Source of the DNA: Erysipelotrichaceae bacterium
GTDB taxonomy: Bacteria > Bacillota_I > Bacilli_A > Erysipelotrichales > Coprobacillaceae
NCBI GenBank assembly: GCA_021201315.1
Contig: JAJQFG010000135.1
Location: forward strand, 1-55,789
Direction: 5' to 3'
Length of the DNA: 55,789 bases
The translations under genes were made by a program, and so were the position numbers. The notes below the pieces were generated by a model. It was given only the letters and a program-made list of their open reading frames with translations. It searched no databases and was not told the origin of the DNA. How positions within the stretch are numbered: position 1 is the stretch's first letter; each line of letters begins with the position of its first letter. This document shows, one piece after another, positions 491-52,310 of the stretch.

Positions 491-503
491 TCTCCTCCTA
501 TTT
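471..503. terminator. Bidirectional terminator between convergent genes
   Basis: 15-bp arms AAATAGGAGGAGATT (471-485) and AATCTCCTCCTATTT (489-503) surround a 3-nt loop. On the minus strand the stem is followed by a U-rich run, so it serves carB best. It overlaps the stop codons of both flanking genes. Confidence 0.8.
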
Positions 504-3500
504 AATTGCTTTATGATATTCTTGTAATGATTTTACTTCATGATATCCATGAATATTCGTTTCAATAATACCTTCTAAGGCAGCTTTTGCAGCTGCAATA
601 TTTGTCATATAAGGTAATCCCATCTTTATAGCATTCTTTCTAATATAACTATCATCATGAGCACTTTGTTTACCACTTGGTGTATTGATAACCATAGCCA
701 ATTCTCCATTGATCAATGCATCATTGATGTTTGGTTGACCTTCATAGAGCTTTTTAATCTTTGTGACAGGAATACCCGCATCTTTAATAAGTTGATATGT
801 TTTGCCCGTTGATACAATCTCAAAGCCTGCATCATAATATCCTTGAGCTAAAGATACAACTTCTGATTTATCTCTATCATTTACACTAATCAATACTTTG
901 CCACTTGTAGGTAAAGGTGTTTTCGTAGCTTCTTCAGCTTTATAGATAGCTGCACCAAATGATGATGCAATACCTAATACTTCACCTGTTGATCTCATTT
1001 CCGGTCCTAAGATTGGATCAACTTCAGGGAACATGTTGAATGGGAATACAGCTTGTTTAATGCCCACATGAGGTATTTTCTTTTCTGTTAAGCCTGGAAC
1101 TGGAGAAGGTCTTCCGGTTAAATCATCAGTAATAATTTCAGTAGCTATTTTTACCATATTGATATTACATACTTTAGATACTAGAGGTACAGTACGAGAA
1201 GCTCTTGGATTAGCTTCTAAGACATAAACCTTATCATCTTCAATGGCATATTGCATGTTCATAAGACCACGTACATTCATTTCTTTAGCTATCTTTTTTG
1301 TATATTCTTTGATTGTATTTAAATGTCTTACTGGAATATGTTGTGAAGGCAAGATACACGCTGAATCACCTGAGTGTATACCCGCTAATTCAATATGTTC
1401 CATAACAGCTGGTACAAATACATTTTCACCATCACTAATCGCATCTGCTTCACATTCCATAGCATTATGTAAGAATCTATCAATAAGAATAGGTCTATCA
1501 GGTGTCACCCCAACAGCAGCAGCCATATATTCTTTCAATTGTTCATCATCATAAACAACTTCCATACCTCTACCACCTAATACATAAGATGGTCTAACCA
1601 TTAGTGGATAACCAATGCGTTTAGCAATTTTCAATGCTTCATCAATATCTGCAGCCATACCTGATTCAGGCATAGGAATATTCAACTTTTCCATCATAGC
1701 ATTGAATAAATCTCTATCTTCAGCCATATCAATTGTTTCAGGTGTTGTACCTAAGATATTAACTCCATTAGCTTTAAGTTGAGAAGCTAAATTTAATGGT
1801 GTTTGTCCACCAAATTGAGCAATAACGCCTAATGGTTTTTCTTTATGATAAATACTTAATACGTCTTCTAATGTTAATGGTTCAAAATATAACTTATCAG
1901 AAGTATCATAATCAGTAGAAACTGTTTCTGGATTACAGTTAACAATAATTGTTTCAAAACCTAATTTCTTTAAAGCTAATGCGGCATGAACACAACAATA
2001 ATCAAATTCAATACCTTGACCAATTCTATTAGGTCCACCACCCAATATCATAACCTTCTTATTATCTGAAACTATATCATGATCTTCGTCATTATATGTA
2101 GAATAATAATAAGCATTATCCTTTGTTCCACTAACATGAACTGGTTGCCATGTTTGTTCAATATGATTATCTAATCTTTCGTTTCTGATTATATCCTCAT
2201 CAATATCTAAAATTTGACTTAAATACTTATCAGAGAAACCATCCAACTTTGCTTGTTTCAATACTTCTACAGGTAATTCTTTACCTTTATAAGTTAATAT
2301 ATTCTCTTCTTCTTCAACTAATTCCTTCATTTGTTCAATAAAATAAGGCTTAATAGAAGTTAACTCATACAATTCATCAACAGTAGCACCTTTTCTTAAA
2401 GCTTCATACATAATAAATTGTCTTTGACTTGTAGGCACAATCAATAATTTCAACAATTCTCCCTTAGACATTTCATGATAATTTTTCGCATAACCTAAAC
2501 CATATTGTCCAATCTCTAAAGAACGAATAGCCTTTTGGAACGCTTCTTTATATGTCTTGCCAATACTCATGACTTCTCCAACAGCTTTCATCTGTGTACC
2601 AAGCTTATCTTCAGCACCTTTAAATTTTTCGAAAGCCCATCTTGCAAACTTAATAACTACATAATCACCATCAGGAACATATTTATCTAAAGTACCATAT
2701 TTACCACATTCAATTTCATCTAATGTTAAACCCGCAGCCAACATCGCTGATATTAAAGCAATTGGGAAACCTGTAGCTTTAGAAGCTAAAGCAGATGATC
2801 GAGAGGTACGAGGATTAATCTCTATAACAATGATTCTTCCACTTTTAGGATCATGAGCAAATTGGACATTTGTACCACCAATAACACCAATCTTTTCAAC
2901 AATTCTAAATGCTTGATCTTTTAAAGAATCCTGAACTTCTTGTGATATTGTCAACATTGGTGCACTACAGAATGAATCACCAGTATGAACACCCATTGGA
3001 TCAATGTTTTCAATGAAACATACAGTAATCATATTGTTTTTGGCATCTCTAACAACTTCAACCTCTAATTCTTCCCAACCCAATACGGATTCTTCGATTA
3101 AGCATTGATGCACTAAACTAGCAGATAAACCACGTGATACAACTGTTTTGAGTTCATCAATGTTGTATACAAGGCCCCCACCAGCCCCGCCCATTGTATA
3201 GGCAGGTCTAACAACAACAGGATATCCTAATCGTTCAGCAATGGCTAAGGTTTCATCCACTGTATTGGCAATTTCACTTCTAGCCATTTCAATGTTCAAT
3301 TCATTCATGGTTTTCTTAAATTCCAAACGATCTTCACCACGTGTAATGGCATCAATTTGGACACCTAAAACTTGAACACCATATTTATCTAATACACCAC
3401 TGTTACTTAATTCTTCACTTAAGTTTAACGCTGATTGGCCTCCTAAGTTTGGAAGTAAAGCATCTGGTCTTTCTTTTTCAATAATCTGTGTTAATCTTTC

Positions 3501-3713
3501 TAAATTAAGTGGTTCAATATATGTTACATCAGCCACTTCTGGATCTGTCATAATTGTAGCAGGATTAGAATTAACTAATATAATCTTATATCCTAAACTT
3601 CGTAGTGCTTTACATGCTTGTGTTCCTGAATAATCAAATTCACAAGCTTGACCAATAATAATTGGTCCTGATCCAATAACCAATACTGATTGTATGTCAT
3701 CTCTTTTTGGCAT
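498..3713 (-). CDS. carB: Carbamoyl-phosphate synthase, large subunit
   Basis: CarB makes carbamoyl phosphate from bicarbonate, ammonia and two ATP, for pyrimidine and arginine synthesis. The 1071-residue product has the family's full length. It begins MPKRDDIQSVLVIGSGP and has two ATP-grasp halves, each with a glycine-rich loop (near RPAYTMGGAGGG and RPSYVLGGRGME) and an EINPR/EANPR metal-binding motif. A C-terminal MGS-like regulatory domain follows. The start at 3713 is set by AGGAGG eight bases upstream; an upstream in-frame extension has no SD. No carA lies next to it, so the glutaminase subunit must be encoded elsewhere. It is transcribed alone from a promoter at 3860-3888, through a leader containing a terminator-like hairpin. 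Confidence 0.97.
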   Translation of the reverse strand: MPKRDDIQSVLVIGSGPIIIGQACEFDYSGTQACKALRSLGYKIILVNSNPATIMTDPEVADVTYIEPLNLERLTQIIEKERPDALLPNLGGQSALNLSEELSNSGVLDKYGVQVLGVQIDAITRGEDRLEFKKTMNELNIEMARSEIANTVDETLAIAERLGYPVVVRPAYTMGGAGGGLVYNIDELKTVVSRGLSASLVHQCLIEESVLGWEELEVEVVRDAKNNMITVCFIENIDPMGVHTGDSFCSAPMLTISQEVQDSLKDQAFRIVEKIGVIGGTNVQFAHDPKSGRIIVIEINPRTSRSSALASKATGFPIALISAMLAAGLTLDEIECGKYGTLDKYVPDGDYVVIKFARWAFEKFKGAEDKLGTQMKAVGEVMSIGKTYKEAFQKAIRSLEIGQYGLGYAKNYHEMSKGELLKLLIVPTSQRQFIMYEALRKGATVDELYELTSIKPYFIEQMKELVEEEENILTYKGKELPVEVLKQAKLDGFSDKYLSQILDIDEDIIRNERLDNHIEQTWQPVHVSGTKDNAYYYSTYNDEDHDIVSDNKKVMILGGGPNRIGQGIEFDYCCVHAALALKKLGFETIIVNCNPETVSTDYDTSDKLYFEPLTLEDVLSIYHKEKPLGVIAQFGGQTPLNLASQLKANGVNILGTTPETIDMAEDRDLFNAMMEKLNIPMPESGMAADIDEALKIAKRIGYPLMVRPSYVLGGRGMEVVYDDEQLKEYMAAAVGVTPDRPILIDRFLHNAMECEADAISDGENVFVPAVMEHIELAGIHSGDSACILPSQHIPVRHLNTIKEYTKKIAKEMNVRGLMNMQYAIEDDKVYVLEANPRASRTVPLVSKVCNINMVKIATEIITDDLTGRPSPVPGLTEKKIPHVGIKQAVFPFNMFPEVDPILGPEMRSTGEVLGIASSFGAAIYKAEEATKTPLPTSGKVLISVNDRDKSEVVSLAQGYYDAGFEIVSTGKTYQLIKDAGIPVTKIKKLYEGQPNINDALINGELAMVINTPSGKQSAHDDSYIRKNAIKMGLPYMTNIAAAKAALEGIIETNIHGYHEVKSLQEYHKAIK

Positions 3714-3745
3714 AAATATATCCTCCTTATTTATATAGTTTTCAC

Positions 3746-3774
3746 AAAAAAACATATCTTATTAGATATGTTTT
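3746..3774 (-). terminator. Terminator-like hairpin in the carB leader
   Basis: On the minus strand, arms AACATATCT and AGATATGTT, extended by flanking A:T pairs, are followed by seven U residues at 3752-3746. It lies between the carB promoter and the carB ribosome site, so it can only act as an attenuator or a partial block. A candidate 23-codon reading frame ends inside the first arm. Confidence 0.65.
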
Positions 3775-47095: not shown

Positions 47096-48427
47096 ATGGG
47101 TATTAAAGATAAAGCAACATCAGTTGGTGTGAAACAAGTTTTAAAATATTTAGATAAGAATCCTCAGGATAATATTCCTAAGATTATTGATTGGTTAGAA
47201 AAAGCAGATGTAAACGGATCAATGGCATCACAATTACCAATTGTTAAAGAAAAATTAAATGATTCAGATAATAATTGGAATCAATTGGTTATGAGTTTAT
47301 ATACAGATATTGATAAAAATGTAAGAAATAAGTTGTTTGAAAACTTTTTAGTCAATTCACTTATGAAATGGAATAAACGTAGTAACGAAGTAAAAGAACA
47401 GTATGGATGTAATGTACCTTGGACTATATTATTAGATCCAACTAGTGCTTGTAATTTACATTGTACAGGATGCTGGGCTAGTGAATATGGAAATCGATTG
47501 AATTTAAGTTTTGATGAAATAGATGATATTATTAGTCAAGGAAAAGATTTGGGTATTTATATGTATATTTATACAGGTGGAGAACCAATGGTCAGAAAAG
47601 ATGATTTGATTAAGATTTGTGAGAAACATAATGATTGTGTTTTCTTAACTTTTACTAATGGTACTTTGATTGATGAAAAGTTTGCAGATGAAATGTTAAG
47701 AGTTAAAAACTTTGTACCTGCCATAAGCATCGAAGGTAATGAAGAAGTCACTGATGCAAGACGCGGTAAAGGTACTTATCAAAAAGTTATTAAAGCAATG
47801 AAACTATTAAAGGATAAGAAGTTGCCATTTGGCGTTTCTTGTTGTTATACAAGTATTAATGCTGATTCTATCAGTAGTGAAGAATTTATAGATCAATTAA
47901 TTGATTTTGGAGCAAAATTTGCTTGGTTCTTCCATTATATGCCAGTAGGCAATGATGCAGTAAAAGATTTATTACCTAACCCAACACAAAGAGAAATGAT
48001 TTATCATAGAATTAGAGATTATAGAAATACAAAAGCTTTATTTACTATGGACTTCCAAAATGATGCTGAATATGTAGGTGGATGTGTTGCTGGCGGACGT
48101 TATTATTTCCATATTAATCCTAATGGTGATATGGAACCTTGTGTATTTATTCATTATTCAGATAGTAACATTAGGAAGAATACTCTATTAGAAGCATTAT
48201 GCAATCCATTATTCATGGCATATAAAGAAGGTCAACCATTTAATGATAACATGTTAAGACCTTGTCCAATGTTAGAAAATCCTGAAAAATTAAGAAAAAT
48301 GGTATATGATTCAAATGCTAAATCAACAGATATGGAATCAGTTGAACCTGTTGATCATTTATGTGATAAATGTGAAGATTATGCTAAAAATTGGCAGGTC
48401 AAAGCTGATGAACTTTGGAATAAATAA
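47096..48427 (+). CDS. Radical SAM protein with SPASM-like C-terminus
   Basis: A 443-residue radical SAM enzyme. The cluster motif is SACNLHCTGCWASEYG (CxxxCxxC, about residue 120), followed by YTGGEPMVR. The C-terminal part has several further Cys (GGCVAGGRYYF, MEPCVF, RPCPM, LCDKCEDYA) that could hold auxiliary clusters as in SPASM proteins. About 110 residues precede the core and look like a dedicated helical domain (GVKQVLKYLDKNPQDNIPK). It is directly coupled to metK. Its substrate is unknown; lipid- or peptide-modifying radical SAM enzymes are possible. Confidence 0.88.
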   Translation: MGIKDKATSVGVKQVLKYLDKNPQDNIPKIIDWLEKADVNGSMASQLPIVKEKLNDSDNNWNQLVMSLYTDIDKNVRNKLFENFLVNSLMKWNKRSNEVKEQYGCNVPWTILLDPTSACNLHCTGCWASEYGNRLNLSFDEIDDIISQGKDLGIYMYIYTGGEPMVRKDDLIKICEKHNDCVFLTFTNGTLIDEKFADEMLRVKNFVPAISIEGNEEVTDARRGKGTYQKVIKAMKLLKDKKLPFGVSCCYTSINADSISSEEFIDQLIDFGAKFAWFFHYMPVGNDAVKDLLPNPTQREMIYHRIRDYRNTKALFTMDFQNDAEYVGGCVAGGRYYFHINPNGDMEPCVFIHYSDSNIRKNTLLEALCNPLFMAYKEGQPFNDNMLRPCPMLENPEKLRKMVYDSNAKSTDMESVEPVDHLCDKCEDYAKNWQVKADELWNK

Positions 48428-48469: not shown

Positions 48470-48496
48470 AAGGATCACAAACGTGATCCCTTTTTT
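48470..48496 (+). terminator. Terminator of metK-radical SAM
   Basis: GGATCAC (48472-48478), loop AAAC, GTGATCC (48483-48489), then CTTTTTT. Confidence 0.85.
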
Positions 48497-50440
48497 AATA
48501 GTTCGTTATAAGTACTTCTTTTGTAATAGCTGTTTTATCTTTAATATGGTAAGAAGCATTACTATATGTTTTAGATATATAATTGATATTATAGGAATTA
48601 TCTAAACACCAATTAATAAGCAGTTCATGTGTTTGTCCCTTATGTTCTATCACATTAGATAACGCAAATTTGATGCCTAAATTATCGCAGCGATTAAGAA
48701 ATTCTAATAAATCTTTTTCATCTTGTAATGTCCATCCACCATTTTCATTATAAGCAGCATCCCCTAAATAATAAGGTGGATCCAAATACAAGAAAGATTG
48801 ATACTGACTTATTTCTTCTATATCCATATCTCTAAAATTTTGACAAACAAAGTTGATATTATGAACATGCATTTTATCAATGAAAGTTGCTAATTTCTTA
48901 CGCAAACTAGCATTAAAATCTCTTTTACCTACTGGTAGATTAAACTCACCTTTATTATTAAAACGAATTTGATTATTAAAACCATATATAATCAACAATA
49001 AGAATAAATCATCTCTTGGCGAAAGATTGTAATCATTCTTAAGTCTACTATATGCTTCCTTATTATACTTACCTACACCATGACTACTATCACATTTATA
49101 ATAAGCATAACCATTTTGATACGTATCACTTAATCCATATTGGTCTATAAGTTGGTCTAAATGTTTGATTAAATCATAAGAATTTGATTGTTTAAGATAT
49201 TGTAGCAAGGATATAACATGTTCATCTATATCCACACATATAACATTATCACAATTCATATTAATACCAACATTAGCACCTCCACAAAAAACATCATAAA
49301 ACACATCTATACCTTCTGGAAATTTACTTACCAATTGAGGTAATATTTTATATTTACCGCCAGTAAAATTTAATGGTGATTTAATAAATTCATCAGTATT
49401 TATTAAATTCTTTGATGTATCTTTTTTACCTACAGTACATAAAAATAATCTTTCTTTATGATTCTCCAAATTTGTTTTACCTGTGGTATAAGCCCCATAT
49501 TCTTCTTCAAATATTTTAACTTCGCCTTTTGTCTTCAATATTTCTAATATCTGTTTATCAGATATTTTAGCGTTTGAACGAGGATCTCCTTGTTTTCCCA
49601 TATTGTTATAAGATACTAAAATATATTTTGCATCAATATTTTCAATCAGTTCTTCATAAGCTAAAGGTGCTTTAGATGAACAATATACACTTTTAAGATG
49701 CTTTCTATCCATCTTTTTGGCAACACCTTTAACTTCTGGCTTCATATTTAATGCAACATTTTCCAAGAAATGATAAGCATCACAAAACTGTCTAGAATTA
49801 TATGGTGGATCAATATATACTAAATCTGCTTTAACATTTTTAACTAATTCATTAGCATCCATTTTATATATTTGATTATTTTTATTATATGAATCTTCTT
49901 CTAAATTAGGAAATGATAAAATAAGTTGATGGTTCAAATCACCGTTTTTACGATAAGCATCATAGTGTCCAACAGTATTCGCTATTCTATCAATTGCGTA
50001 TATTAAGCTACATATAAGAATATTTTTTCTCTAAGGTTAATCAAATTATTATCATATAAACTATCTATATCATCTCTAATATAACCTACTTTAGACATAT
50101 TTTCTTTACTTAAATATGTATCAGCAAAATTCATAGAGTAATAATTATCTTCATTAGTACTTAAATTATTATAATTATCTATAAGATTCATTAACTTATC
50201 TCTATCTACTTCTTCATCATCAAAAAAAGTATAATAAGCTACCTCGTTGGTTGTTAGAGTATCATTCACAATAATATCATAATCCCTATTAAAACTATAA
50301 CCAACAACTCCAGTTCCAGCAAACAAATCACATACACTAGTAATATCCTGACAATGATTATCCACAACCTTATGAATAAAATCAATAAGTTTATATTTAC
50401 TTCCTAAATATCTACGATTATTAATACTAAACTCTTTCAT
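48495..50440 (-). pseudogene. FokI-like double-domain adenine methyltransferase, broken at an A6 tract
   Basis: The coding strand has an N-terminal part (50440 down to about 50023) with RRYLGSKYKLIDFIHK, CDLFAGTGVVGYSFN (motif I) and no motif IV. The next frame (down to 48495) continues it with NTVGHYDAYRKNGD, then VYIDPPYNSRQF (motif IV of domain 1). A second full domain follows: NFTGGKYKILPQLVSKFP, FCGGANVGIN and FLYLDPPYYLG. Adding one A to the A6 at 50028-50023 rejoins them into about 648 residues, close to M.FokI (647), which also has two such domains. The present sequence stops six codons after the tract. The ATG at 50440 has GGAG seven bases upstream. No restriction gene is adjacent. 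Confidence 0.88.
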
Positions 50441-50504: not shown

Positions 50505-50526
50505 AAAAAGCCCTTATGGGCTTTTT
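50505..50526 (-). terminator. Terminator of the 89-residue protein gene
   Basis: AAAAAGCCC (50505-50513), loop TTAT, GGGCTTTTT (50518-50526), giving U residues on the minus strand. It overlaps the stop codon. Confidence 0.85.
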
Positions 50527-50794
50527 AACTTAATTCTTGTATCAAATATTCTCCTTCAACAATACTTCTAAACTGTTTTGATATTTCATGATTTGTTTGT
50601 ATTCTAATGGATTTAAGTAATATTTCATGAAAATCAGAATCGATAATACCAACAGGATTATCTTGAATAATTTTAAGAATAATTAATAAATTATCATCTG
50701 ATATGATAACATCATGTTTAATACATAATTCTTTAAGACTTATAAGTGACAAGTTTTGTAGTTTTCTGTTTAATTCACTAATAGCTTTGAACAT
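50525..50794 (-). CDS. Small helical protein, unknown family
   Basis: An 89-residue, Leu/Ile-rich, all-helical-looking protein (SELNRKLQNLSLISLKEL at the start). The pattern is loosely like the DUF2624 (YqfT) family, but I am not confident. AGGAGG lies seven bases before the ATG inside a palindrome. It has its own terminator and lies upstream of the broken methyltransferase in the same direction. Confidence 0.6.
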   Translation of the reverse strand: MFKAISELNRKLQNLSLISLKELCIKHDVIISDDNLLIILKIIQDNPVGIIDSDFHEILLKSIRIQTNHEISKQFRSIVEGEYLIQELS

Positions 50795-50871: not shown

Positions 50872-51519
50872 TTAAAGTTTAAATTTATGACCTCTTGAAT
50901 ACTTTTCAACCAGCAGAAATTGTGAAGCATCATAAGGTTTCATAAAAATATCTTTGTTGTGTTTTAACCATTTATCTGTTTCCTTATTTTTGTTCAAAAA
51001 TATAATTAAACCTGTTTGAAAGTATATTCTACCATAATGAACAACATGCAAATAAAGATATGCATCATCTAGTTGTCCAAATGCTCCTAATCCTCTATCA
51101 ACCAAATTGATTTGCTCATGCGTAAAAACATTCTCTACACATGTGATTGCTTTCATATCATCTCTATATACAACTTCATACATACCATGAGTAGAATCAA
51201 TCATGGCTTTTATCATTTTTAATTTTTCAGCTTTTCTTATGCGTGTATGTTCTTGTAGATATTCAATTTTTGATTGAATTCCTGATATCTGCGGATATAT
51301 AAGAAACTCACCATATATTTTTGAATGTTGTGGATCATAAAAATCAAAATCTATATTTCCACAATTTGAAGCTTTTACAATGTTTGTAAACATTGTATAA
51401 TCCTCTTCATCAAAAGAAAGATTCATTTTATCATAAAGTTCCTGATGTATTTTTCTAGCTTCCATATATTTTTTAACATGGGGTTGTTTCATTTGCATTT
51501 GATTGAGCATACCCATCAT
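50872..51519 (-). CDS. Protein of unknown family, paralogue 1
   Basis: A 215-residue soluble protein with no recognised domain. It starts with a short Gln/Met-rich helix, then KKYMEARKIHQELYDKMNLS, and ends DKWLKHNKDIFMKPYDASQFLLVEKY. It is a diverged paralogue of the protein at 51600-52310: the blocks EARKIHQE, GEFLIYP, GMYEVVYRDDMKAIT and FQTGLIIFL match in order. The start has only a weak SD (GGATTATTATAGT), so it may be read with its upstream partner. Confidence 0.7.
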   Translation of the reverse strand: MMGMLNQMQMKQPHVKKYMEARKIHQELYDKMNLSFDEEDYTMFTNIVKASNCGNIDFDFYDPQHSKIYGEFLIYPQISGIQSKIEYLQEHTRIRKAEKLKMIKAMIDSTHGMYEVVYRDDMKAITCVENVFTHEQINLVDRGLGAFGQLDDAYLYLHVVHYGRIYFQTGLIIFLNKNKETDKWLKHNKDIFMKPYDASQFLLVEKYSRGHKFKL

Positions 51520-51599: not shown

Positions 51600-52310
51600 C
51601 TATTCCTTATTTCCTAACAAATGTTCATCTACAACATGACGTTCTTCATGAATACCATCCCCACGATTACGATAATGTTTTTCAACAAATAATAATTGAT
51701 CAATATCATATGGTTTCGTAAAAATATTCTTACTTTGTTTTAACCATTTAGTGGTTGATTTATTGATTTTAAAAAACATACATAAACCTGTTTGAAAATA
51801 AATATCATGATAATAAATAATATGCAAATAAATATATATTTTTTTATCTTGATCTAAAGCACCAAAGTTCATATCTGTTAATGTTGTTCTTTCATGTGTA
51901 TAAATATTTTCTACTGTTGTCAACGCATTAAGATCATTTCTACCAACAATTTTATACATTCCATAAATGGAATGAAGCATTGCTTCTAACATATCTTTTT
52001 GTTCAGGTGATTCTAATAAATTATTAATTTTATAATATTCGCACTTGCTTTGAACAGCTTCATGTTGAGGATAAATAAGTACTTCACCATATATATTTTC
52101 ATCATGACTATTAGAAATATTAAATCTCATGTTTTGATATCGTGATAAATATATAATATCAGAAAACATGCGAGCATGTTCTTTATTATAGGTAACATCC
52201 ATTAAATCATACATTTCCTGATGTATTTTTCTTGCTTGCAAGTATTCTTGTACATTTTGTTGTTTTAATTGTTCTTGATTTAATATATTAAGTCTTGTTC
52301 TAATGTCCAT
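51600..52310 (-). CDS. Protein of unknown family, paralogue 2
   Basis: A 236-residue soluble protein with QARKIHQEMYDLMDVT, GEVLIYPQH, GMYKIVGRNDLNALT, FQTGLCMFFKINKSTTKWLK and KNIFTKPYDIDQLLFVEKHY, all matching paralogue 1. It has a longer polar tail. AAGGTGG lies six bases before the ATG. The start overlaps the GH32 gene end by 11 bases, so it is the last gene behind the sucrose hydrolase. No function can be assigned. Confidence 0.72.
   Translation of the reverse strand: MDIRTRLNILNQEQLKQQNVQEYLQARKIHQEMYDLMDVTYNKEHARMFSDIIYLSRYQNMRFNISNSHDENIYGEVLIYPQHEAVQSKCEYYKINNLLESPEQKDMLEAMLHSIYGMYKIVGRNDLNALTTVENIYTHERTTLTDMNFGALDQDKKIYIYLHIIYYHDIYFQTGLCMFFKINKSTTKWLKQSKNIFTKPYDIDQLLFVEKHYRNRGDGIHEERHVVDEHLLGNKE

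Follow-up and report, generated by a model that had tools for sequence, protein, structure and literature searches.

A solitary AlwI-type double adenine methyltransferase gene, intact in three sister species, with a frame break best explained by a very recent single-base deletion

The window, as we call the whole 55,789-nucleotide stretch of DNA from a gut-type bacterium analysed here, carries a gene for a double adenine methyltransferase of AlwI type whose reading frame is broken at a run of six A residues. The gene has no partner endonuclease in any of the four species of the genus that were compared, is uninterrupted in the other three and has been kept under purifying selection across the genus. 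As for the break itself, a very recent single-base loss-of-function deletion is the most likely reading, and we consider it probable, if with reserve; an error of the consensus sequence comes second, and switching between A6 and A7 is a possible third. A sequence-only reading of the window had recognized the frame break, its position, the double methyltransferase and the missing partner, all of which stood up; its proposals of phase variation and slippage rescue found no support, and its FokI label gives way to AlwI. A plain recent loss-of-function mutation, which its title did not list, fits best.

The broken gene and its intact orthologues

The sequence and the list of open reading frames place a single 648-residue protein, with two adenine methyltransferase domains of the D12 class (M1 and M2), in two frames of the minus strand. 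The N-terminal piece (50003..50440, 145 aa), whose translation ends in NLREKIFLYVA, contains motif X (RRYLGSK) and motif I (DLFAGTG) of M1 up to the break, after which six out-of-frame residues lead to a TAA stop. The second piece (48495..50027, an open frame of 510 codons) holds the remainder of M1, with its catalytic motif IV (IDPPYNS), and all of M2, for which alignment to the intact orthologues identifies FTGGKYK, DVFCGGANVG and LDPPYY. The junction reads GAG-AAAAAA-TATTC, the A6 run lying at 50028-50023 as originally described, and the second frame is offset from the first by -1. The Pfam D12 model matches both pieces (1.9e-15 for the N-terminal and 8.3e-41 for the second, which also matches the Dam family TIGR00571 at 9e-44). 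An intact orthologue contains two PF02086 stretches, and the window pieces align to both domains. The break falls inside M1, between the SAM-binding motif and the catalytic DPPY, and leaves M2 entirely downstream. M2 alone could in principle work if it were translated; the earliest in-frame ATG, GTG or TTG of the second piece is a TTG at 49937, within the M1 remnant, and inspection of the window sequence by eye found no convincing translation restart.

We compared the window genome (G000) with three congeneric species (G001, G002 and G003), each represented by one genome; a search of genome contigs for further strains of the window species brought up these three sisters alone, and viral contigs yielded none. 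All three sisters carry one uninterrupted frame (ORFs of 660-668 aa, 648 codons from the shared start) that is exactly one base longer than the window gene and 86-87% identical to it at the DNA level, which establishes that the split frames are one gene. The locus is shared by all four species, with a metK copy, a radical SAM protein and the methyltransferase on the opposite strand. At the break the tract reads A6 in the window, an uninterrupted A7 in G001 and AAAAGAA in both G002 and G003, and the nucleotide tree groups the species as ((window,G002),(G001,G003)) with full support. The simplest history suggested by this tree and by the tract of G002 and G003 is that AAAAGAA was ancestral and that one base was lost in the window lineage; dropping the interrupting G would yield A6 in one step, and a two-step route through A7 is possible as well.

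Selection on the gene has been purifying, with dN/dS values of 0.059-0.085 over the whole gene and 0.047-0.071 after the break for all pairs of the four species. Outside the missing base, the window frame contains no further stop or indel. The window lineage has 15 nonsynonymous and 34 synonymous changes of its own, and the three sisters between them have 20 and 109 (Fisher p = 0.034); this excess of nonsynonymous change is weak, comes from one among several comparisons and loses significance when only the sequence past the break is counted (p = 0.16).

The surroundings deserve a few remarks. The radical SAM/SPASM gene (47096..48427, plus strand), convergent with the methyltransferase, belongs to the neighbourhood that all four species have in common. 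Each of the four has two genes for SAM synthetase (metK; in the window genome, 46008-47093 and G000:C76:16284-16703), the second copy lying directly before the radical SAM/SPASM gene, near the methyltransferase; in G002 this second copy (L036, G002:C34, 2557-3643) occupies two frames beside an A run and is either an error or a pseudogene. Upstream of the methyltransferase, an ORF of 89 aa (50525..50794, minus strand), also adjacent in G001 and G002 where the contig reaches, has a weak, below-cut-off resemblance to DUF2624, its link to the methyltransferase being positional. Two similar-looking neighbouring ORFs (50872-51519, 215 aa; 51600-52310, 236 aa) are partly conserved in G001 and matched no Pfam family at E 0.001. 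Further away, the 1085-aa window ORF 498-3755, whose start looks carbamoyl-phosphate-synthase-like by eye, has a frame-broken counterpart in G001 (L125 4398-7653) that is about 98% identical. The window genome also encodes a second adenine methyltransferase (L001 697-2256, G000:C31, 519 aa), seemingly a D12 domain joined to another methyltransferase domain, which adjoins a tyrosine-recombinase-like ORF.

System type and the missing endonuclease

Beyond the genus, homologues were found in seven genomes of the order, six of which have RE_AlwI (PF09491); in these six, the ORF layout has the methyltransferase followed at once by the next gene, which puts the endonuclease immediately downstream. 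Plasmid homologues in Lactococcus (L. lactis pUC11B), Priestia (P. megaterium) and Staphylococcus (S. aureus pPH1-2) adjoin annotated AlwI-family endonucleases as well. Identity between the window protein and these RE_AlwI-paired homologues, whether plasmid-borne or from genomes of the order, is about 48-52%. PF09491 is missing from all four species of the genus, in a search that found it in five other genomes, and this agrees with the earlier remark that no restriction partner is present. Because the relatives adjoin AlwI-family endonucleases and the genus has none in four of four species, we take the gene to encode a solitary AlwI-type double adenine methyltransferase, an assignment drawn from the neighbouring genes of its relatives; its constant locus and its low dN/dS suit a solitary enzyme. 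The FokI-type filing was rejected, the endonucleases next to the closest paired relatives being of the AlwI family; a search for the FokI-type domain PF09254, run without a positive control, found none in the genus. The AlwI cleavage site is GGATC; any methylation target of the window gene is putative, as sites differ among AlwI-family enzymes.

Type II double D12 methyltransferases of the AlwI family share the M1-M2 order over the full length and are thus the closest known systems, from which the window differs in lacking the endonuclease and in its broken frame. An N-terminal extension resembling a helix-turn-helix, which Pfam scores under the curated cut-offs, is also present in several of the paired homologues, whereas in the alignment the versions of the genus lack it. 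In two genomes of the comparison (G148 and G151; L055 and L056), M1 and M2 each have an ORF of their own, side by side, and an AlwI-type endonuclease comes next. We considered whether the window frames could be such a natural pair and rejected it: the natural splits, in L. lactis pUC11B as in G148 and G151, fall between the domains, while the window split lies inside M1.

M.FokI likewise joins two adenine methyltransferase domains in one protein, and each of them modifies one strand according to the work of Sugisaki 1989 as cited in PMC12898733; the likeness is one of description, not of compared sequences, and the endonucleases beside the relatives of the window gene are AlwI-family. Mycoplasma hominis M12.MhoVII also fuses M1 and M2 and acts on a non-palindromic site, and a TA repeat within its gene led the authors to suggest phase variation (PMC12898733); it differs in its M1 of the YhdJ/beta class, in the TA nature of the repeat and in having an endonuclease. 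Dam-like orphan adenine methyltransferases resemble the window gene in lacking a partner endonuclease, in genus-wide conservation and in purifying selection, and M2 matches both the Dam family and Dam proteins of solved structure; compared with Dam, the window gene has two domains, presumably an asymmetric site, and a regulatory role only as a possibility. Solitary methyltransferases often derive from restriction systems minus the endonuclease (PMC12898733), and the window gene fits such an origin.

What broke the frame

The account that we favour is that the genus inherited the solitary methyltransferase as a chromosomal gene, kept by selection, and that one very recent base deletion at the A run of the window genome cut M1 short of its catalytic motif. 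As the sequence reads, the cell would then make a dead fragment of 145 residues and would be devoid of a methyltransferase acting on both strands, M2 being active only if translation restarted downstream. In favour of a deletion are the three sisters, intact at the same locus, and the loss of G in one step on the species tree; as a counterpoint, the A7 of G001 indicates that an unbroken A run is compatible with an intact gene. The pattern of changes fits a break recent enough for little decay to have set in.

Frame breaks are not rare in these genomes, which also speaks for the deletion. In stretches totalling 0.94 Mb of the window genome and 0.98 Mb of G001, 6 of 254 comparable genes and 5 of 246, respectively, are frame-broken, about 2% in both; in several the difference is one base at a run of A or T, and others are away from homopolymers or differ by at least two bases. 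The window break is therefore an ordinary one for these assemblies, whether mutation or consensus error. Accordingly, the second explanation, that the organism has an intact gene from which the consensus dropped one base, draws on the same rate, on the metK copy of the G002 metagenome-assembled genome likewise broken beside an A run, and on the otherwise perfect frame past the break. We hold it to be possible but rather doubtful, as a run of six is short for a homopolymer error and some of the broken genes do not have the form of one. The window branch is slightly richer in amino-acid changes, a pattern that leans towards a real loss and matches recently relaxed constraint, yet it might equally accompany an error or a switch and is not decisive.

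A third reading sees in the run a phase-variable switch, in which the tract would slip reversibly from A6 (off) to A7 (on) and back, turning methylation on and off within the population. An intact A7 allele does exist in G001, the gene body is preserved in the window genome, and poly-G or dinucleotide tracts are known switches of methyltransferase genes, as in Mycoplasma agalactiae, where poly-G and GA tracts were shown to vary in length (PMC9465063). The tract, however, is merely 6-7 bases long and interrupted by a G in two of the three sisters, so that no hypermutable repeat is maintained across the relatives; runs of at least six A or T abound, the 55.8-kb window holding 113 of them, and breaks at a rate of about 2% in both genomes call for no special mechanism. 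We therefore regard the proposed phase variation as unlikely, and still more so its genus-wide form, in which part of the population would lose two-strand methylation of an asymmetric site, or keep one strand through M2, with altered gene expression. Least probable is a rescue of the A6 allele in which transcriptional or translational slippage or programmed frameshifting would yield some full-length protein: although slipping by -1 at GAA AAA ATA would unite the frames and the coding sequence downstream is conserved, these codons at the window site form no canonical X XXY YYZ heptamer, the RNA structure predicted past the run does not surpass that of shuffled sequences (z = 0.63), and no frameshift is used at the corresponding point in the sister species.

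Meaning for the genus

The gene belongs to an already known kind of system, and the weight of the case is modest. A caution follows for these low-GC assemblies, in which single frame breaks at A or T runs are common: to be read as phase variation, such a break needs a second strain or the reads, and the interest of the present one would stay low unless A6/A7 variation turned up within the species. If the deletion is real, the gene is a clear-cut example of a methyltransferase of restriction type retained throughout a genus without its endonuclease and then inactivated in one species, and the window species and its intact sisters would make a natural pair for probing the role of solitary methylation.
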